A stretch of 64,000 nt of DNA, from assembly GCA_947468275.1 (NCBI GenBank), contig CANIKO010000017.1, positions 1 through 64,000 on the forward strand, in the 5' to 3' direction. The position numbers were made by a program, and so were the translations under genes. The DNA is from Bacteroidota bacterium. GTDB taxonomy: Bacteria > Bacteroidota > Bacteroidia > NS11-12g > UBA9320. Positions 41,126-55,454 of the stretch are shown here, in pieces. Numbering within the stretch: position 1 is the first letter of the stretch; each line of letters begins with the position of its first letter. Below the pieces are notes generated by a model, which worked only from the letters and a program-made list of their open reading frames with translations, did no database searches and was not told the origin of the DNA.

Positions 41126-44100
41126 ATGAAAATTATATTAAAGGGTTGCCTAGTAATTCTGTTATATGCAGGATTGATAATATCGGTAAATGCTCAAAAT
41201 TTCAAACCTTCTAATTTCGTATTAATCCAAAAGGCCGACAGTTTGGTCGCAATTTATGAACTTACTTCTGATACCGTCAGTCGTGATGCGGCCTTAAATA
41301 TTTATCTAGATATGGTTAAGGATGAAAAAAGAGAAGTTCGTCCTGATACCGCAACTCTTATTCATTGCGAATTTAAGATAGGTTATATAGATATGAAATG
41401 GGGTGAATATAAATGGGGAATGGAAGCTTTTGAGCGAATGCTGAAGTATGTGAAAAGACCTGCCGATCAAGAAATTATAAGTAAAGCTATGCCTTATTTA
41501 GGCTATTGTTATCGAGAAACACGATTGGAAAATTTCACCTTCGACTTACCTGAATTTGACAAAACAGAACGTCTTGAATTTTATTTTCCGATTAGTAATG
41601 TTTTTCCAAAAAACAATGACACAATTATAGTTAAAATAAATTTTGGAACTTATGACGGTATTGGCCTTGGAACCATCGGAACAGTGCGAGGGGTGAAAAC
41701 TGATTTAGTAAGCGGTCATAATAATATAATTCTAGGTAATTGTGAAGTTACAGATATAGCCGAAAGTCAGGCTATACTAAAGATTTATGATTTTCAGGGT
41801 AAAGATTCTCTTCACCTTATTTATAAGGATGACATGGTAAAATTACCTATTCAGTTTCCTAAGAGATTTCATGATTTGGTTACCAATTGCCTTACTTATA
41901 ATATTGGTTTTTACAATATTGACGGATATGATTTTTATGATTATCGCCAATGGTATATGCATGGAAGCGATTCCATATTTGATGATATTGTATTGGCTAT
42001 GGAATATGATATTCATAAAGGGTACGATAAATTTAAGGAAAGTGAAATTGAAGTTTTAAGGAAAGTATGCAAATCGGGCCGGTTTAAAGACAAAACCCTA
42101 TTAGAAGCTTTAAAAATTTCAACTAGAAAAGATATTAATGATTTTTTGAATTATGCGTCATTTTATGCCTCATCATTTTATGGACGGATTTCACTCATTG
42201 TTAGTTATGCTGATTGGGTGCTAGATAATACTCCAGTAAGTTATGGCGAATTTTTTGATGCAATTGAAAATGCTTCTAACGATCAGGATTTACAAGGTAT
42301 TGCAGCACTTTATAAGGAAGAGGCTATGAGGAATGATTTTTTTACTTATTTGGGCAATGATGAAGAGGCTTTAGTAGACAATAATCAGGATAACAGGGCA
42401 TTTGCGCTAAACCGAAGCCATCGCAAAGTGGCCCAATATATGAACTCGGAACAGCAGGTTGGATGGAGTTATTTTTTTAAAGCTCGAATGCATGATACTC
42501 GCCAAGAATCAGATTCGGTAATTGAAGCTTATACTCAAGGTGTTGAATACCTTAAAAAAAGCAAAGATATTAAAGGCGAAGGATACTGTATAGGTAATCT
42601 TGCCGCAAAATATTATGACCTTTTGGATTACAAAAAGGCACTGGAATACTATAAAAAAAGTTATGTATTAAAAACTAAAATCAATACCGATGACTCATCT
42701 AATTATTTTAAGGGAATAGCAATTGCACTCCATGGAATTGGAGATTCCTACTATGCATTAAATGAATTTGATTCCGCTTTGACAGTCTATATCAAGGCAA
42801 CTAATTATTATAATAGTGCAAATTCGGTTGAAGGCAGATCACGATCATTAAGTGCATATAAATACATTGCCAAAATATTAAAAAAACAAGGAAAATACCT
42901 TGAGGCATTTAAAGCATATGAAACTCAACAAAAGAAATACAATCAATTGGGAGATCAAAAAAATGTGGCTGAAACGTTTGATGATTTGGCAGATGTACTT
43001 TTCAGTTTAAATGATTATGAGAAATCTGCTGATTATTACAATAAAGCTTGCAAAATGAAATTAAGCTGGGACAATAAGGCAGGGGCCGGATATTCGATGT
43101 CTAATGTTGGTCAGGCGCTATATAATTTGGGCGAATATGACAGAGCTATTGCTGCGCATGATAGCGCAGTTAAATATAGAAATGAAGCAGGTGACCAATC
43201 GGGAGTGGCCTATTCATTGGGGCAAATTGGTTCACTATATAAAGAAAATGGTGAGTATGTAAAAGCAGCCGATTATTACGACCGAGCTTATGAAATCTAT
43301 AAAAAATTGGAAGATAAAACGAGTTTGGCAGGAATGGCTAATAAAAGAGGAGGGTTGGAACAAAAGATAATGAATTATAGTCAGGCCTATAATTACTATA
43401 AAGAAGCATTACTGCTGTATTCAGAACTCAATGATAAAATTGAACTAGGGAATATGTATTACAATATATCTGCCATTTTTTCGAAACAAAATAAATTCAC
43501 AGCAGCTCTCCTTTTCTTGGATACAGCTCTAATAATCCAAAAAGAAACTGGCGATCAAAGTGGTCAAATGTACACATTAAACTATATTGGAAATCTTACA
43601 GAAGTTCAGTTTAAGGATAATAAAAAGGCCATGGAATTCTACAAGCAATCACTTCAAATTGCGAAATCCACAGGCAGCCCATACAACATAGCAGTTTGCC
43701 AGACTTCTATAGGAAACCTTTATGCAACTATGGGTATGTATTCCAAATCCAAACCTTATTTGGATAGTTGCTACCAGATATATGTAAAAATTAAAGACCG
43801 ACTCCAACAAACCTATAGTTTAGTAAATATTGGTTATCATTATACAAGCATAGGGAACTTTGTTGAATCAGAGAAGTTTTTTAAGGAAGCATTAAAAGTA
43901 TCCGAAGAAATAAAAAATAACAGTGCCATTGCTAACTCACTTTCGGCCTTGGGAAGTATTGGAAGGGTAACAGGACAATTCCAAAAATCATTAGGTTATT
44001 TAGCTCAAAGTGCTGAATTATATAAAAAGGCTGATAATCCTTGGGGAATAGCTAGCAATTATATTGAAATGGGAAACCTTTATAACGAACAATCAAAATA

Positions 44101-46255
44101 CAGTATGGCTGTGGGCTATTATCTTAAAGCCGATAGCTTTTATCGCTCAATAAAAAGCGAATATTTTAGAAGTACACCGCTTAATAATGCGGGAACAATA
44201 TTTTATCACCAAGGTAATTATGACAGTTCACTCAGTTACTTTTTCCCTACATTGGAAATACTAAAAAAAATAGAACCTGAGGGTGATTTCATAAACTTGG
44301 TAACCGTAAATATTGGTGAAGTATATGTGATGAAAAAAGAATATAACGAAGCCGAAAAATGGCTAAATCTTGGGCTTGAAAATTCAATGAAACGTGAAGA
44401 TAAAAGAAATCAAGGAATAGCCCTGAGAATAATAGCAAAATATAATATTGGTCGTCAGAAATATAAAGAAGCGGAAATTCAAGCCTTTAAAGCATATGAA
44501 ATAGTTGGGGATTCGGGTGAAATAGAGAATGCAACCGATATATACAATCAAATAGGTAGGATAAAATATGAACTCAAAGAATATAAAACCGCCATTGAAT
44601 GGTATAATAAAACTATTAAAAAGTCAGAACCTATTGGTTTTATGAAGTACTTGTATGAGGCATACTATTATAGTGCATTGGCCAACAATGCCTTAAATCA
44701 AAAAGATACAGCATTGAGGCAGCTAAAACGAGCCATAGCGGTTATGGAAAAAATAAGCAGTCAAATAACTGGTGGATCTGAGGCTAGAAAAATGTTTACA
44801 ATGGGCGATTTACAACAAAAAATGTATGAAACTATAGTCGAATGGCTTTTGGCACAAGGTAAGATAGAAGAAGCAATAACCTACCTTGAAAGAGGGAATA
44901 ATGAAGCTTTGAATTCTAAATTTAAGCAACTCAAGGGTGAAGATAGAGGTGCTACAAGCGAAACTAATAAAGCTTTGGCCGAAGCTGAAGAAAAGCAAAA
45001 AGCCCTAGAGAAACTTAATGCTGAAATTGTAAAGGAAAAATCAAAACCAATAGAATTGCAAAAAACAGAATTAATTAAAGAACTCGAAGCTATTCAAAAA
45101 GTTGGCCAAAAGGAATATAAAAACTTTGTACAGGATTTAGTAAAAAACAATCCCAAAATTCAGGTTTATATTAGTAATAGCGTAAACCCTGACGATTTTA
45201 GAGCTGAGAAAAAAAATATTTCCTCAGATATGGCAGTTTTGCTTTATCTAATGGCTGAAAAAAACCTTTATATTTTTTGCGCCACCAAAGACTCGGTATT
45301 TGCAAAAGTTGTAAATATTGAAAGTAAGGTGTTAAGTAAAAAAATAATGATGATGTACAATTTAGTGCGTAATCCATCTTTTGCACCAACTACCACGCGT
45401 CGCGGAAGCAGAGTAGTAAATACCCCTAAAGTTGAAAATCCTGAAAAAGTATTAAATGAAACAAGTAAGGAATTGTATGAGTTGCTAATTGGGTCTGTTA
45501 AAAAAGAAATCGGAGGCAAAACGCGATTAGCAATAATACCAAACGGCGATTTGTATTATTTACCTTTTCATGCACTTATTGCCAAGGAGGAAGATAAACA
45601 AGTAACCTATCTAATAGATGAATTTACCGTTTTTTACAGTAATCGTCTTAAATTTTTAGGAAGCTCACAAGCAATAGATTTAGCTAATTTTCACATCATT
45701 GCTGTGGGAAATGCTGATAAAAGTTTGCCCGCAGCCGAAGTTGAAGTGAACGATATTAAAACCTTATTCCCAAACTCAATGATTTTAAAAGGTAAGGACG
45801 CCACCAAGGAACAGCTGTTCGCTCAGTCTGGTAATTTTAATGTGATGCATCTTGCCACCCATGGAATTCTGGATTATAATAATTTTGATAGTTCTTACCT
45901 TGTTATGGCAAACAATGGTAGGTTTACTCTAAACGATATTGGCGATCTTAATAATATAGATCAATATACATTGGTGGCTCTTTCGGCTTGTGAAACCGCA
46001 GTTAAAAATGATTTGGTAGAAGGCTGGCCTCAAACTACAGCATCGGCTTTTTTAACAGCAGGGGTAGAAACTGTAATTGCCTCACTTTGGCAAGTAGATG
46101 ATAAAGCTACAAGCCTGTTAATGAAAAAGTTTTATGAAAATGTGTCAACTATGAATAAAGTAGAATCCCTTCACAAAGCACAGGTTGACTTGAGTAAAAT
46201 ACAGGGATTTAGCCATCCGTATTACTGGGCTCCGTTTGCCTATTACGGTAAATAG
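41126..46255 (+). CDS. Exported TPR-CHAT (caspase-like) protease
   Basis: A 1709-residue protein. A signal peptide (Leu/Ile-rich core, ending SVNAQ) directs it out of the cytosol. Residues 30-420 form an unassigned N-terminal region. About 430-1240 is a chain of TPR units (for example GYCIGNLAAKYYDLLDYKKA, VAYSLGQIGSLYKENGEYVK). A coiled coil near 1285-1345 follows, then a CHAT domain to the C terminus. The catalytic dyad is present: His1579 in LATHG and Cys1622 in LVALSACET. TPR-CHAT proteins are typically cytosolic partners of defence or signalling systems; an exported one is unusual. No T9SS tail and no partner gene stand next to it. Its target is unknown. Confidence 0.85.
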   Translation: MKIILKGCLVILLYAGLIISVNAQNFKPSNFVLIQKADSLVAIYELTSDTVSRDAALNIYLDMVKDEKREVRPDTATLIHCEFKIGYIDMKWGEYKWGMEAFERMLKYVKRPADQEIISKAMPYLGYCYRETRLENFTFDLPEFDKTERLEFYFPISNVFPKNNDTIIVKINFGTYDGIGLGTIGTVRGVKTDLVSGHNNIILGNCEVTDIAESQAILKIYDFQGKDSLHLIYKDDMVKLPIQFPKRFHDLVTNCLTYNIGFYNIDGYDFYDYRQWYMHGSDSIFDDIVLAMEYDIHKGYDKFKESEIEVLRKVCKSGRFKDKTLLEALKISTRKDINDFLNYASFYASSFYGRISLIVSYADWVLDNTPVSYGEFFDAIENASNDQDLQGIAALYKEEAMRNDFFTYLGNDEEALVDNNQDNRAFALNRSHRKVAQYMNSEQQVGWSYFFKARMHDTRQESDSVIEAYTQGVEYLKKSKDIKGEGYCIGNLAAKYYDLLDYKKALEYYKKSYVLKTKINTDDSSNYFKGIAIALHGIGDSYYALNEFDSALTVYIKATNYYNSANSVEGRSRSLSAYKYIAKILKKQGKYLEAFKAYETQQKKYNQLGDQKNVAETFDDLADVLFSLNDYEKSADYYNKACKMKLSWDNKAGAGYSMSNVGQALYNLGEYDRAIAAHDSAVKYRNEAGDQSGVAYSLGQIGSLYKENGEYVKAADYYDRAYEIYKKLEDKTSLAGMANKRGGLEQKIMNYSQAYNYYKEALLLYSELNDKIELGNMYYNISAIFSKQNKFTAALLFLDTALIIQKETGDQSGQMYTLNYIGNLTEVQFKDNKKAMEFYKQSLQIAKSTGSPYNIAVCQTSIGNLYATMGMYSKSKPYLDSCYQIYVKIKDRLQQTYSLVNIGYHYTSIGNFVESEKFFKEALKVSEEIKNNSAIANSLSALGSIGRVTGQFQKSLGYLAQSAELYKKADNPWGIASNYIEMGNLYNEQSKYSMAVGYYLKADSFYRSIKSEYFRSTPLNNAGTIFYHQGNYDSSLSYFFPTLEILKKIEPEGDFINLVTVNIGEVYVMKKEYNEAEKWLNLGLENSMKREDKRNQGIALRIIAKYNIGRQKYKEAEIQAFKAYEIVGDSGEIENATDIYNQIGRIKYELKEYKTAIEWYNKTIKKSEPIGFMKYLYEAYYYSALANNALNQKDTALRQLKRAIAVMEKISSQITGGSEARKMFTMGDLQQKMYETIVEWLLAQGKIEEAITYLERGNNEALNSKFKQLKGEDRGATSETNKALAEAEEKQKALEKLNAEIVKEKSKPIELQKTELIKELEAIQKVGQKEYKNFVQDLVKNNPKIQVYISNSVNPDDFRAEKKNISSDMAVLLYLMAEKNLYIFCATKDSVFAKVVNIESKVLSKKIMMMYNLVRNPSFAPTTTRRGSRVVNTPKVENPEKVLNETSKELYELLIGSVKKEIGGKTRLAIIPNGDLYYLPFHALIAKEEDKQVTYLIDEFTVFYSNRLKFLGSSQAIDLANFHIIAVGNADKSLPAAEVEVNDIKTLFPNSMILKGKDATKEQLFAQSGNFNVMHLATHGILDYNNFDSSYLVMANNGRFTLNDIGDLNNIDQYTLVALSACETAVKNDLVEGWPQTTASAFLTAGVETVIASLWQVDDKATSLLMKKFYENVSTMNKVESLHKAQVDLSKIQGFSHPYYWAPFAYYGK

Positions 46256-50228: not shown

Positions 50229-53200
50229 TTGCAAAAAACTTTTAATCTTATATTATTTTTTTTGGTGGCTGTTCCTTTTGCAAAGGCTCAACCAAAAGCA
50301 GCTTTTTATGCCAGCCCGAATAAAGGCTGTTCACCGGCTACAATTAAATACATTAATCAAAGTGCCGGCACAGGTTTAACATATTTTTGGGACTTGGGGA
50401 ACGGTAATACCAGTACAATTAAAGATCCACAGGCTATTTATTATACGCCGGGATTATATACTATAAAACTTGTCGTAACCGATGTTAAAGGAAAAAAGGA
50501 TAGTATTGCACGAACCAAGTATGCGGAAGTTTTTAAAAACCCTATCGCAAATTTTGATGCTACCTCACGCACTGGATGTACTCCTTTTGATCCGGGACTA
50601 ACCGATAAAAGCACACGAGGAAGTGCTATGATAACGCAGTGGACTTGGGATTATGGTAACGGAATGGTTTCCACAAGTCAAACTCCTTATTATGCCTACA
50701 CCTCCGAAGGAGTTTATACGGTTTCGTTATTAGTAAAAGATGCCAATGGATGTCAAAGTGATGTTATAAAAAAGCAATATATCACCGCTAATTCTACCCC
50801 ACAGCCAATATTTATTGCTGATAAAACGAGTGCTTGTACTAAGCCTCTTACCGTGAATTTTACCAATAAATCTACAGGATTAAAAACCGGAGACCAGTTT
50901 GAATGGGATTTTGGAGATGGCACAAATTCAACAGATAAAAACCCTAAAAAAACCTATACAGATACCGGAAGTTTTACCGTGGTTTTAACTGTAAAGTCCG
51001 CTAATGGATGCAATACAAGCAGTAAGCTTAGCAATTATATAAATATTATAAAACCTAAACCTTCATTTAATGCATACCCAAATCCTGCATGCGAAAATAG
51101 TGAAATTACTTTTTTTAATACCTCAAAACCGGCAAGTTTTAGCTATTTGTGTAATTGGGATTTGGGCGATGGTAATACTGCAAAAGGAACCAAAGCTACC
51201 AATAAATATAAATCAAAGGGAACTTACACTATAAAACTAACCATAAGCTTATCAGATGGTTCATGCAAAGAAACGATAACTGTGCCTGATGCAATTACTA
51301 TTTTAGCCAAGCCAATTGCTAAGTTTACAATAAGCGATACATTAATGTGTAAGCCTGGACTTATAGATACTTTGATTGATAAATCTGTTGGAGGAACGAT
51401 GCGAAATTGGTATTTGAATGATTCCTTTATCTCTAGTAACAGGGGAGTGATTATAAACATTAAAAAGAAAGGGTATTCCAAGATAACATTGGTTTCAGGT
51501 AATGGTTCTTGTTATGACACTTTAGTAAATAACACGGCTATTTATGCCGATACTATTAAGCCGGATATAATTATTGATCCCAAAAGAGGATGCAAACCTT
51601 TAAATGTGAATTTTACAGATGCAACTCAAACAAAACTTCAGATAACCTCTCGTATTTGGGATTTAGGCGATGGTAATTCTGATTATAGGGAATCCTTTAG
51701 TTATACTTACACAAGTGCAGGAACATACATTGTTAACTTAACAGTGACCACCAAGCCGGGCTGCAGTTTCTCAACTGTTGATACTGTAAAAGTTGGTTTA
51801 CGACCTGATATTTCCTTTACTTTTCCAAAAACATCTTTATGCAATTTGGATTATTTGGACATAAAAACAGCTAAAAATAATAATGGGTTAAAAATAGATG
51901 AATGGTTATGGTTTTTAGATTCTAATTTTATTGATTCAACAAAAATACTGCATCGCAAAATACGAGTAAAACCCGATACATATAATGTGAAATTAGTTGC
52001 CGGAAATAATGGATGTTATGATACTTTGGTGATAAAGGATATTCTGAGAATAATGCCACCACTTGTTTCTTATATTATGATATTTGATTCATGTAAAGGG
52101 TTTCCTTACACATTTATTAATACATCAGATAGTGCTGATAAAATTGGATGGGTAATGAGTAATAATAGTACAATTTTAAATAAGGATACTTTAATTGTGT
52201 CAAATATTGCAGGTCCTTGGCCACAGCTATTATGGGGCAAAAACACAAAATCAGGATGTGTAGATTCACTTCCAATTATTGTTAATCCTATATTTAGGTC
52301 GGCTAGTTTCTCCTATTCAGGGGGATTGTGTTCCCCAGCTAATTTAACATTAAATAATAATTCAAGTGGTTATGATAAGTTTTTTTGGAACTGGGGAGAT
52401 GGGACAAAAGAAGCAAATGATAACACATCCATTTCCAAAACGTTTTTGAATGCCGGAAGTTATAAAGTGACATTAAAAGCTAAAACTAATGATGGATGCC
52501 AAGATTCTTTCTCTCAGGTTATTAAAGTTACGGGTCCTCAGGTTTTAATAGATGTAAGTCCAAAATCGGGTTGTGGCCCTATAATATTAACTCTTATAAA
52601 TAAAACTTCAGACACTTCTTTAAAAAATAAATTTTGGCAAATAAGTGGATTGGCACCAATTGCAGTTACAGCCGATACCATGTATTATACCTTGAAAAAG
52701 CCCGGACCATTGAAAGGTGGAAATTATGCTGTAACCCTTTCAATGCAAGATAAAAATGGGTGCAAGGGAATTGGCTCGGATACTGTAAAAGTTATTGGTT
52801 TAAGCTATCATTTTCAAGTTTTATCAATGGCTACCTGCTCGTATCCTAAACTTACCATACGACCCATTTTTCATGAATCAAGTCTGGATGAAAAGAAACT
52901 TAACTTTTTTTGGGATATAGGTGACGGTAGGAAATTTACGGGTTCACCTATAGATTTTTGGTACAAAACTCCGGGAGTTTACAAACTTAGCCTTAAGGTG
53001 GTAGATGAAAATAGTTGTGTAACAGAGCTGGATACATTAATTCAAAATAACCAAAAGTCAATTACTGCAAGTCTTTTGGCGGATAAACTAGAAGCTAATT
53101 GCCCGCCTTTGCGGGTTAATTTTGTTTCTAAATCGCAAAGCAAGTTTGGAAAAATTGAAAAGTACTTTTGGGATTTTGGAGATGGTTCTTTTTCAACTTT

Positions 53201-55454
53201 AGCAAATCCTTCTCACGTTTATATTATTGCCGGCAAGTTTTCGGTAACCCTTACTGTTATTGATGAACTGGGCTGTCAGGATAAAATCACATTTAAAGAT
53301 TTAATATTAATTGACGGCCCAATTGGTACCTATAAATTTGATAAAAAAGCCGGATGTACTCCGCTGTTTGTAAATTTTGACGCCATCATTTCTAACACCT
53401 CTAAACTGGAATGGGACATGGGGGATGGTGAAATAATTCAAGACACAACTAAGACGGGGCATACCTATACGCGAGTTGGGAAGTATATTCCGCTATTGGT
53501 TTTGGCTGATAGTTTTGGGTGTAAATATACCTTACCACCTATTGATACTATTAATGTTTTCCCAATCCCAATTCCTCAATTCAATTTTACTTCACCTTGC
53601 ATAAAGCAACCTGTTTATTTCACCAATACCACCAATCCTTTAAAGGGAACTATTAAAAAATGTGAATGGAATTTTGGGGATGGAGATACCTCGTTGCGAT
53701 TTGAACCAAGCCATATTTTTAAAACCAAAGGCAAGTATGATGTAACATTGAAGGTTTGGAATACTGACAGTTGCGAAGCGCAAATAACAAAACAAGTAGT
53801 TATTAAAAATACAGCTGCTGCTTTTAAACCCGGAAAAGATTTTTACTGCACAGGCCAAATACCTTCTTTAATAAACACTTCTCAATCAGATACTACTTTT
53901 AAATTATACAATTGGTTTTTGAATGATTCATTAATCTCCATTAATAAAACACCAAGTCTACCGAAACTATCATCGGGACTATACAAAATCACATTGGCTA
54001 TTAAAGATAATTTTGGATGTGAGGACACCATTACTCAAAAAAATGGGTTGTTAATAAGTGATACTCTTCCCCCTATTCCTCCATTTATTTACAGAGTTTC
54101 GGTTGAAAATGATTATGATGTGATATTAGATTTTTCAAGCTATCGTGGTTTTGATTTTAAAGAGTATGGCATATATAGTGGCAACAAAAAAATTATAATT
54201 TTATCTAATATTAGCGATACCTCTCAAATAATTAATTCGCTCAATACGCTTCACAATGTGTATTGTTATAAAGTAACAGCTACCAACCTTTGCGGATATG
54301 AGTCGGATATCAATTTGGCTTTGGAGCATTGCACCGTGGAAGCCGCTGCATCTGGTGCTTTTAAACGAGTGGATTTGTTATGGAATGCCTACAAAGGTTG
54401 GCCGGTAAGTAAATATGAAATATTTAGAGAAGACATTGGCCAAAAAGGAAAATATGATTATTTGGCTACTGTTGCTGGTAATCAGTTAAACTATACCGAT
54501 ACCAATGTGTATTGTAAAATTATACATTTTTATAAAATAAAAGCTTTTGAAAACGGAGGCTATAATCAAATTTCATGGAGTGATACCACAGCAGCTAAAC
54601 CATTGTTTTCCAATTCAGTTCCACCAAATAATACCATTAGAGCCACAGTAGATTTTGATAAAGAAATAACTATTGAATGGACCGGAAGCGGTTCGCCACG
54701 AATACCAATTCAGGAATATGTGCTTGAAAAATCGGAAGATGGCAATAATTACAAATGGTATCAAAGTTTTAAACCTGATGAATTTGCCTTTACCGATAAA
54801 AAAGTTTTGGTAGATGATAAATCCTATTTTTATAGAACCTACGCTATAGATACCTGCAAACTGTTGAGCCCGATTACAAATTTTGCTAAAACTATTTTGC
54901 TCCATGCTGATACCACGGTTACCGAACGACCCTTTGTAACTTGGAGCAGCTATCAAGGCTGGACCGAAGGTGTAAATGAATACGAAGTACAACGTAAAAA
55001 AGCCGATGGAACTTTTACCACTGTTGGTATTACTTCAGCAAATGATTCAATGTTGGTGGATAATGTTACTGACCTAAATGGATATCCATATTACTGCTAC
55101 AGAGTAATTGGTTATAAAAATATGATTAATGGCAAAAAGCAAATTTTCAGTATTTCAAACGAAGATTGTGCGCCTGTGAGGTCGAGAATTTTTGCGGCCA
55201 ATGCCTTTACAATAAACGGTGATAACCTGAATGAAACCTTTGATATTAAAGGGCTTTATATCCGTGATTATAATATAAAAATATTTAATCGCTGGGGCGA
55301 TAAAGTATTTGAAAGCAGTGATATGAATGTGGATTGGGACGGATACTATGATGGCAAAATTAGTCAAATGGACGCCTATATCTGGATAATAAAAGCAGTA
55401 GGTGTAGATGATGTGAGCTGGCCGATGACAGGAACAGTGACTATTATTAGATAA
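50229..55454 (+). CDS. Giant PKD-repeat surface protein with gliding-motility (T9SS type B) C terminus
   Basis: A 1741-residue secreted protein. It starts at a TTG (50229), no ATG being available, with a signal peptide ending FAKAQ. About a dozen PKD-type domains fill residues 20-1280; many show the core 'W-D-F/L-G-D/N-G' (YFWDLGNGNT, FEWDFGDGTN, YFWDFGDGSF, CEWNFGDGDT), and each has one or two Cys. Fibronectin-III-like domains follow (1290-1640). The CHU_C tail (AFTINGDNLNETFDIKGL, then NIKIFNRWGDKVFES) is the type B sorting signal. Probably a cell-surface adhesin or filament. TATATTCG at 50211-50218 may be the -7 box, giving a very short leader. Confidence 0.85.
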   Translation: MQKTFNLILFFLVAVPFAKAQPKAAFYASPNKGCSPATIKYINQSAGTGLTYFWDLGNGNTSTIKDPQAIYYTPGLYTIKLVVTDVKGKKDSIARTKYAEVFKNPIANFDATSRTGCTPFDPGLTDKSTRGSAMITQWTWDYGNGMVSTSQTPYYAYTSEGVYTVSLLVKDANGCQSDVIKKQYITANSTPQPIFIADKTSACTKPLTVNFTNKSTGLKTGDQFEWDFGDGTNSTDKNPKKTYTDTGSFTVVLTVKSANGCNTSSKLSNYINIIKPKPSFNAYPNPACENSEITFFNTSKPASFSYLCNWDLGDGNTAKGTKATNKYKSKGTYTIKLTISLSDGSCKETITVPDAITILAKPIAKFTISDTLMCKPGLIDTLIDKSVGGTMRNWYLNDSFISSNRGVIINIKKKGYSKITLVSGNGSCYDTLVNNTAIYADTIKPDIIIDPKRGCKPLNVNFTDATQTKLQITSRIWDLGDGNSDYRESFSYTYTSAGTYIVNLTVTTKPGCSFSTVDTVKVGLRPDISFTFPKTSLCNLDYLDIKTAKNNNGLKIDEWLWFLDSNFIDSTKILHRKIRVKPDTYNVKLVAGNNGCYDTLVIKDILRIMPPLVSYIMIFDSCKGFPYTFINTSDSADKIGWVMSNNSTILNKDTLIVSNIAGPWPQLLWGKNTKSGCVDSLPIIVNPIFRSASFSYSGGLCSPANLTLNNNSSGYDKFFWNWGDGTKEANDNTSISKTFLNAGSYKVTLKAKTNDGCQDSFSQVIKVTGPQVLIDVSPKSGCGPIILTLINKTSDTSLKNKFWQISGLAPIAVTADTMYYTLKKPGPLKGGNYAVTLSMQDKNGCKGIGSDTVKVIGLSYHFQVLSMATCSYPKLTIRPIFHESSLDEKKLNFFWDIGDGRKFTGSPIDFWYKTPGVYKLSLKVVDENSCVTELDTLIQNNQKSITASLLADKLEANCPPLRVNFVSKSQSKFGKIEKYFWDFGDGSFSTLANPSHVYIIAGKFSVTLTVIDELGCQDKITFKDLILIDGPIGTYKFDKKAGCTPLFVNFDAIISNTSKLEWDMGDGEIIQDTTKTGHTYTRVGKYIPLLVLADSFGCKYTLPPIDTINVFPIPIPQFNFTSPCIKQPVYFTNTTNPLKGTIKKCEWNFGDGDTSLRFEPSHIFKTKGKYDVTLKVWNTDSCEAQITKQVVIKNTAAAFKPGKDFYCTGQIPSLINTSQSDTTFKLYNWFLNDSLISINKTPSLPKLSSGLYKITLAIKDNFGCEDTITQKNGLLISDTLPPIPPFIYRVSVENDYDVILDFSSYRGFDFKEYGIYSGNKKIIILSNISDTSQIINSLNTLHNVYCYKVTATNLCGYESDINLALEHCTVEAAASGAFKRVDLLWNAYKGWPVSKYEIFREDIGQKGKYDYLATVAGNQLNYTDTNVYCKIIHFYKIKAFENGGYNQISWSDTTAAKPLFSNSVPPNNTIRATVDFDKEITIEWTGSGSPRIPIQEYVLEKSEDGNNYKWYQSFKPDEFAFTDKKVLVDDKSYFYRTYAIDTCKLLSPITNFAKTILLHADTTVTERPFVTWSSYQGWTEGVNEYEVQRKKADGTFTTVGITSANDSMLVDNVTDLNGYPYYCYRVIGYKNMINGKKQIFSISNEDCAPVRSRIFAANAFTINGDNLNETFDIKGLYIRDYNIKIFNRWGDKVFESSDMNVDWDGYYDGKISQMDAYIWIIKAVGVDDVSWPMTGTVTIIR

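Follow-up and report, generated by a model that had tools for sequence, protein, structure and literature searches.

What would a caspase-type protease do outside the bacterial cytoplasm? The question is raised by a single gene in the 64,000-nucleotide stretch of a Bacteroidota contig analysed here (the window), which occupies positions 41126..46255 of the plus strand and encodes a protein of 1709 residues. The open reading frame described in the sequence-only reading of this DNA holds up: it starts with ATG, contains no internal stop and has full-length, 1712-aa relatives in two other genomes of the genus (67% identical in G002, 66% in G001). The dN/dS ratio between these two relatives is 0.068 over the whole protein and 0.025 over its C-terminal CHAT domain, with synonymous sites near saturation. 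The gene is real and under constraint. CHAT is the most constrained region in this comparison and the N-terminal hairpins are among the fastest-evolving, a gradient that suits a fixed engine joined to a changing sensor.

Much of the chain is a very long TPR array, as had been claimed earlier. TPR_12 of Pfam matches ten stretches, and a consensus scan counted 16 units from residue 486 to residue 1264 (42581..44917, plus strand like all features of this gene), most of them spaced at 40 residues; 100 shuffles gave a mean of 3.4 units and a maximum of 8. A coiled coil proposed to follow the array is weakly supported, as two long helices at residues 1281-1340 (44966..45145) that appear only in a low-confidence model (pLDDT ∼33-58). 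The CHAT domain (PF12770) spans residues 1445-1708 (45458..46249) with an E-value of 2.1e-53 and 182.1 bits against a curated cut-off of 24, and is the only CHAT match in the 3.3-Mb genome that carries it. Peptidase_C14 (PF00656) is absent from the 15 Pfam families that match the window protein at E up to 0.1.

The His1579/Cys1622 dyad assigned in the sequence-only reading is borne out by alignment. His1579 (codon 45860..45862) lies within MHLATHG and Cys1622 (codon 45989..45991) within LSACETA, and in a phmmer alignment to the solved TPR-CHAT (E ∼0.005) the two residues fall, by counting, on H585 and C627 of PDB entry 7x8a, which form the dyad of that enzyme (PMC9729208). Dyad motifs are present in seven of seven CHAT forms that share the N-terminal domain described below and in nine of nine related Peptidase_C14 forms that reach them, two further C14 pieces ending before the motifs. 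Six later CHAT-type proteins that reach the motifs contain ATHG in every case and SAC[EQK]T in five (the exception is G502), and a strict dyad pattern is found in 46 of 60 CHAT proteins sampled from the phylum. The caspase-like protease of the window protein thus appears to be intact, as judged from these motifs. AlphaFold2 modelling of the CHAT domain from three sequences (pLDDT 36.2) was too poor for use.

The window protein begins with MKIILKGCLVILLYAGLIISVNA and continues after the predicted cut with QNFKP, giving a positive start, a hydrophobic core, a small-residue cut and then Gln. The proposed signal peptide is supported by a home-made and crude rule, which assigns it to residues 1-23 (41126..41194) with the cut between VNA and QN; the following residue, Q24, is invariant in 11 of 11 rows of an N-terminal profile, A1. 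Gln at +1 after a signal peptidase I cut is the Q-rule of Bacteroidetes (PMC5837995). Signal peptides were called in 17 of 19 N-domain proteins, by a rule that also makes calls in 256 of 3000 shuffled N-termini, 9 of 240 internal stretches and 17 of the 41 long frames in the window, some of which look cytosolic.

Export is widespread among relatives in the broader sense. CHAT is present in 148 of 296 genomes of the phylum, and 60 of the proteins were hand-picked from the matches listed, about one per genus and with a bias to high scores. A Q-rule signal peptide, scored in the CHAT-bearing frame as a hydrophobic stretch with a small residue and then Gln behind it, occurs in 41 of these 60 TPR-CHATs versus 5 of 256 stretches taken from the interior of these proteins, and a hydrophobic N-terminal segment in 52 of 60 versus 8 of 256. 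Scoring the longest frame, which is the wrong one at some GC-rich loci, gave 42/60 and 40/60 and was not used. TPR-CHAT proteins of this phylum are therefore, by prediction, exported as a rule, and the premise of the sequence-only reading, that CHAT proteases are cytosolic and an exported one exceptional, does not hold here. Its interpretation survives in the export signal, the dyad and the unassigned N-terminus, without that premise. At its cut the window protein shows no lipobox, and Pfam at E up to 0.1 detects neither of the T9SS tail domains, Por_Secre_tail and CHU_C; it is therefore most simply read as a soluble protein of the periplasm, and on its sequence features the periplasm is its most likely location.

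The region behind the signal peptide had been described as unassigned, and it remains so: no Pfam family has its best stretch in the window protein before residue 501. Residues 24-145 (41195..41560) form a helical, TPR-like segment, as indicated by profile cross-hits and by a model that is confident only in the first ∼70 residues. Residues 149-374 (41570..42247), hereafter the N-domain core, gave no Pfam match even at E up to 5. The two beta-rich segments reported there are only weakly supported, since strands at ∼149-243 were modelled and match no Pfam family, but with a pLDDT of ∼29-58; the AlphaFold2 model of the N-region as a whole, from four sequences (pLDDT 46.6), is too poor for a claim about its fold. 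A search of PDB sequences with the N-domain profile returned a single match at chance level (E 1.3), and a plasmid search with the N-region returned none. A Pfam search of 17 N-domain members gave just weak matches, each confined to one member, and these, with FlgT_C (0.059) among them, were rejected. Rfam found nothing in the 64-kb window at gathering scores.

A family-wide search with the N-terminal region gave matches in other genera on proteins of ∼1370 aa. These relatives in sister genera carry a predicted signal peptide, the N-domain and TPRs, with Peptidase_C14 in place of CHAT, and the homology of the N-domain between the two kinds of protein is detected by single-sequence BLAST with a best E-value of 5e-15 over residues 153-372. 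The domain is rare. A core profile of residues 149-374 (A3, 17 rows) matches 18 of 108 genomes of the order, 8 of 80 in family f35 and 3 of 27 in family f30, and only 6 of 395 genomes across the phylum; five of these six matches are strong, the window's own among them, and G115 is one of the six at E 2e-4. A3 replaced profile A1, whose matches in 45 of the 395 phylum genomes mostly look like TPR cross-hits, lying in profile columns ∼1-160 and on other, mostly shorter frames.

CHAT-type N-domain members are found in the window's genus (G000, G001, G002, two contig pieces in G005 and a broken copy in G004), in f35 and in f30. Those of f35 are 1837-1873 aa long, apart from a 1530-aa piece at the start of a contig; those of f30 have 1614 and 1623 aa, with one piece in addition. 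C14-type members come from four genera of the window's family other than its own and from four genera of family f52. Partial N-domains without a recognised protease were also seen, after WG repeats in a 433-aa protein (G358, L101:7322-8623) and in ORFs of 388 aa (G036, L102:1010-2176) and 240 aa (G567, L188:3013-3735). The proposed family is defined by a single chain that joins a clan CD protease to TPRs, the N-domain and a predicted signal peptide, and the window protein has all four. The new element is thus a rare N-domain that is shared by predicted exported TPR-CHAT and exported TPR-C14 proteins, and within one bacterial family sister genera place different caspase-fold proteases behind the same predicted exported front.

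The CHAT-domain tree, built on 69 rows after 9 of 78 had been dropped for short spans, places the 13 N-domain CHATs in one clade with support of 100/100. In an N-domain tree of 27 rows, a single branch parts CHAT from C14 forms with 87/90 support and in 90% of bootstraps, a moderate level that, together with several long branches, calls for caution; holding the C14 rows together was not rejected (p-AU 0.275). With one such branch, a single exchange of the protease end suffices.

The gene has not been kept throughout its genus. In G004 it is broken: tblastn recovers it as three pieces, each in a different frame and two of them interrupted by stops (L029:6194-11315, G004:C20), and its CHAT half is still ∼80-85% identical; either decay or an assembly error would account for this. 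The N-domain was not found in G003 and G006, two of the seven genomes of the genus (G006 is 77% complete). Since one of five carriers is broken and two of seven genomes have no match, the N-domain gene appears to be dispensable in the genus.

The genomic surroundings were then compared among relatives. In the window, the gene lies between a lipid A acyltransferase gene (295 aa) and an ORF of 163 aa that matches no Pfam family. There is no constant partner in the genus: G001 and G002 do not share the same upstream block, and none of four loci has an adjacent CHAT, C14, subtilase or trypsin protease. The search for a conserved neighbour suggested by the sequence-only reading therefore failed in the window's own genus and succeeded elsewhere in the same bacterial family, where all seven C14 loci of genera g8, g9 and g10 (L031, L033-L038) share a divergent block encoding a 156-aa protein without a Pfam match, an ECF sigma factor and a PKD-CHU_C protein (Pfam run on one locus' copies), with a giant protein beyond it. 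A SprF-like label for a 430-aa neighbour was dropped, its Pfam domains being PKD and CHU_C. The window itself encodes, at 50229-55454 (plus strand), a giant 1741-aa surface protein with CHU_C and many PKD domains, and a 1756-aa relative of this protein adjoins a C14-type gene in G357 (L099:2241-7511).

The more telling neighbour in relatives, which the sequence-only reading had not foreseen, is a second exported protease. A CHAT, C14, subtilase or trypsin protease with an export signal is adjacent at 12 of 27 loci and in 9 of 14 assessable genera, and none of the four kinds is adjacent in genera g1 (the window's), g8, g9, g10 and g159. In f35, a TPR-CHAT of 816-841 aa lies upstream at all six loci with sequence there (G221, G480, G413, G531, G547, G565), directly adjoining except in G413 and G531, where it is one gene away; its N-terminus is a signal peptide by eye, of the lipoprotein type in G413 and G531. 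At both complete f30 loci (G279, G582), a C14 caspase gene with a weak DUF4384 match overlaps the end of the N-domain gene and is followed by an M48-TPR gene, both products having signal peptides. At three of three f30 loci (L093:6107-7126, L189:2240-3250, L190:1-460), the gene upstream, in divergent orientation, encodes an exported N-acetylmuramoyl-L-alanine amidase; one of the three is a cut piece that scores under the Pfam cut-off. In three f52 genera, the gene just upstream encodes a subtilase with an export signal, whose T9SS tail match passes the cut-off in two of the genera and falls short of it in the third. In G009, two trypsin-ankyrin genes lie upstream, the nearer 2 bp away and with a signal peptide, the farther truncated by the contig end. 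Tandem pairs of CHAT genes that lack the N-domain, with ∼3.3 kb between the two, were also seen in several f24 genomes (for example G311:C12:21707-25875, G188:C23:32375-36541, G287:C1:876718-880889, G118:C8:5946-10101, G323:C11:487297-491698).

Counted over all loci, proteases of the four kinds make up 12 of 43 adjacent same-strand genes versus 1 of 178 others, the one being the second trypsin of G009. Three pieces of broken N-domain genes were removed before this count; with them the figures are 14/45 versus 2/179. The Fisher p of 8e-9 is not to be leaned on, because the protease classes were chosen after the loci had been seen and loci of the same genus are not independent. On another contig of the window's own genome, a gene for an exported trypsin-like protease (490 aa) is directly followed by one for an exported C14-DUF4384 caspase (670 aa; the two, themselves an exported protease pair, span L182:6999-10523, equal to G000:C4:115999-119523), and this caspase is 27% identical to the C14 partner in f30. 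That it serves as an unlinked partner of the window protein is a guess.

Csx29, the protease of the type III-E CRISPR Craspase (PDB 7x8a and others), resembles the window protein in having a TPR array followed by CHAT with an aligned dyad. Csx29 is described as having eight TPRs, a three-helix N-terminal domain and Cas7-11 as its partner (PMC10028731), whereas the window protein has 1709 aa, a predicted signal peptide, the new N-domain and at least 16 TPR units by scan. Craspase is a cytosolic RNA-guided complex that is not exported, and no gene for Cas7-11 or another large effector adjoins the window gene at its locus. The exported TPR-CHATs of Bacteroidota share the signal peptide, TPRs and CHAT with the window protein, but are usually encoded in frames of ∼850-1170 aa and fall outside the N-domain CHAT clade. 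They are presumably annotated only as CHAT domain proteins. Prokaryotic metacaspases have a caspase-fold dyad as well, and their protease, C14, is found behind the same N-domain in sister genera; the window protein carries CHAT without a C14 match. For metacaspases, TPR partners, possible signal peptides and operons with several metacaspases have been reported (PMC3501461). Trypsin-nuclease and caspase-nuclease (canu) loci have in common with the present loci the idea that a co-encoded protease activates its neighbour, but the text of PMC12799240 mentions no signal peptide or periplasm, whereas the partners of N-domain relatives are exported proteases. Two CHAT proteins, one of them thought to be transmembrane, are encoded in a T6SS region of B. 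fragilis (PMC11854122). No literature on the N-domain protease family was found in open-access sources, which is weak evidence of absence.

Our favoured explanation, which we hold with belief and doubt in equal measure, is that the window protein is an envelope caspase-fold protease in which the N-domain and TPRs sense, CHAT stays latent until triggered, and activation is relayed with a second exported protease. The protein would be exported by Sec to the cell envelope, most likely the periplasm, where the N-domain and the long TPR array would form the sensing and docking part. CHAT would be kept inactive until a ligand or partner alters the array, and the activated domain would then cut a specific envelope protein. 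We infer the latency because Csx29 works in this way, a change in its TPR array reordering the His and Cys of an otherwise inactive protease (PMC10028731, PMC9729208). A relay is hinted at because relatives' genes often adjoin a second exported protease; where the two are co-encoded, one protease would activate the other, and the window member, which has no adjacent partner, would use an unlinked one. We counted in favour of this explanation the export signals, the dyads, the shared N-domain, the CHAT clade, the neighbouring proteases, the constraint on CHAT and the trypsin/C14 pair of the window's own genome, and against it the five genera without an adjacent protease, the dispensable gene, the protease classes chosen post hoc, the crude signal-peptide rule and the moderate support of the CHAT/C14 branch.

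Two other accounts also place the protein in the envelope. It could be a cell-death or defence effector on the envelope side, an extracytoplasmic counterpart of the gasdermin- and CRISPR-linked CHATs, in which envelope damage or attack leads the protease to activate a lytic protein. This is unlikely, though well worth keeping in mind: known bacterial CHAT and caspase homologues act in defence (PMC9729208, PMC12799240) and the divergent amidase genes of f30 are in keeping with it, but no defence genes were recognised beside the window gene (PADLOC reported a generic TPR and weak matches only), no gasdermin was seen at the locus, where the 163-aa flanking ORF has no Pfam match, and the neighbours in the genus look like housekeeping genes by eye. 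Somewhat less probable still is a housekeeping protease for periplasmic processing or quality control, whose TPRs would dock misfolded or precursor proteins. Export, purifying selection and the spread of exported TPR-CHATs through the phylum are all as expected of such an enzyme, which should nevertheless be more widely retained than a patchy N-domain (18/108 genomes of the order) and a broken G004 copy suggest.

Action on the surface or outside the cell, after crossing of the outer membrane, is improbable. Surface proteins of T9SS type are common in these genomes, the CHU_C protein at 50229-55454 of the window among them, and the f52 subtilases have T9SS tail matches, but the window protein has neither such a tail domain nor a lipobox. 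We give very little credence to a pseudoprotease scaffold without cutting activity: the dyad is retained in all seven CHAT forms, and the strongest constraint of the protein falls on CHAT. Scarcely any is due to a cytosolic protease whose N-terminus merely resembles a signal peptide. The home-made rule does make false calls, but the Gln at the cut is invariant across A1, and the Q-rule pattern is far more frequent at the N-termini of the phylum's TPR-CHATs (41/60) than inside them (5/256). The sequence-only reading had named three findings that would speak against it, namely a missing signal peptide, loss of the dyad in close homologues and homologues that always lack export; none of them was made, signal peptides being called in 17 of 19 N-domain proteins and dyads kept in 7/7 CHAT and 9/9 C14 forms.

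In the open-access literature covered, the bacterial CHAT and caspase homologues whose role has been worked out are defence enzymes of the cytosol; in contrast, most of the sampled TPR-CHATs of this phylum carry predicted export signals. The small family delineated here combines one new domain with either of two kinds of protease, time and again with a second exported protease nearby, and raises the question of caspase-type proteolytic switches outside the bacterial cytoplasm and of their targets. We tentatively propose, as a possibility more open to doubt than the favoured explanation of the window protein, that the family forms an extracytoplasmic caspase-type cascade, in which a sensor of N-domain and TPRs, with CHAT or C14 as its protease, is wired to an exported CHAT, C14, subtilase or trypsin. 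If true, such a cascade would be an envelope analogue of initiator/executioner pairs.
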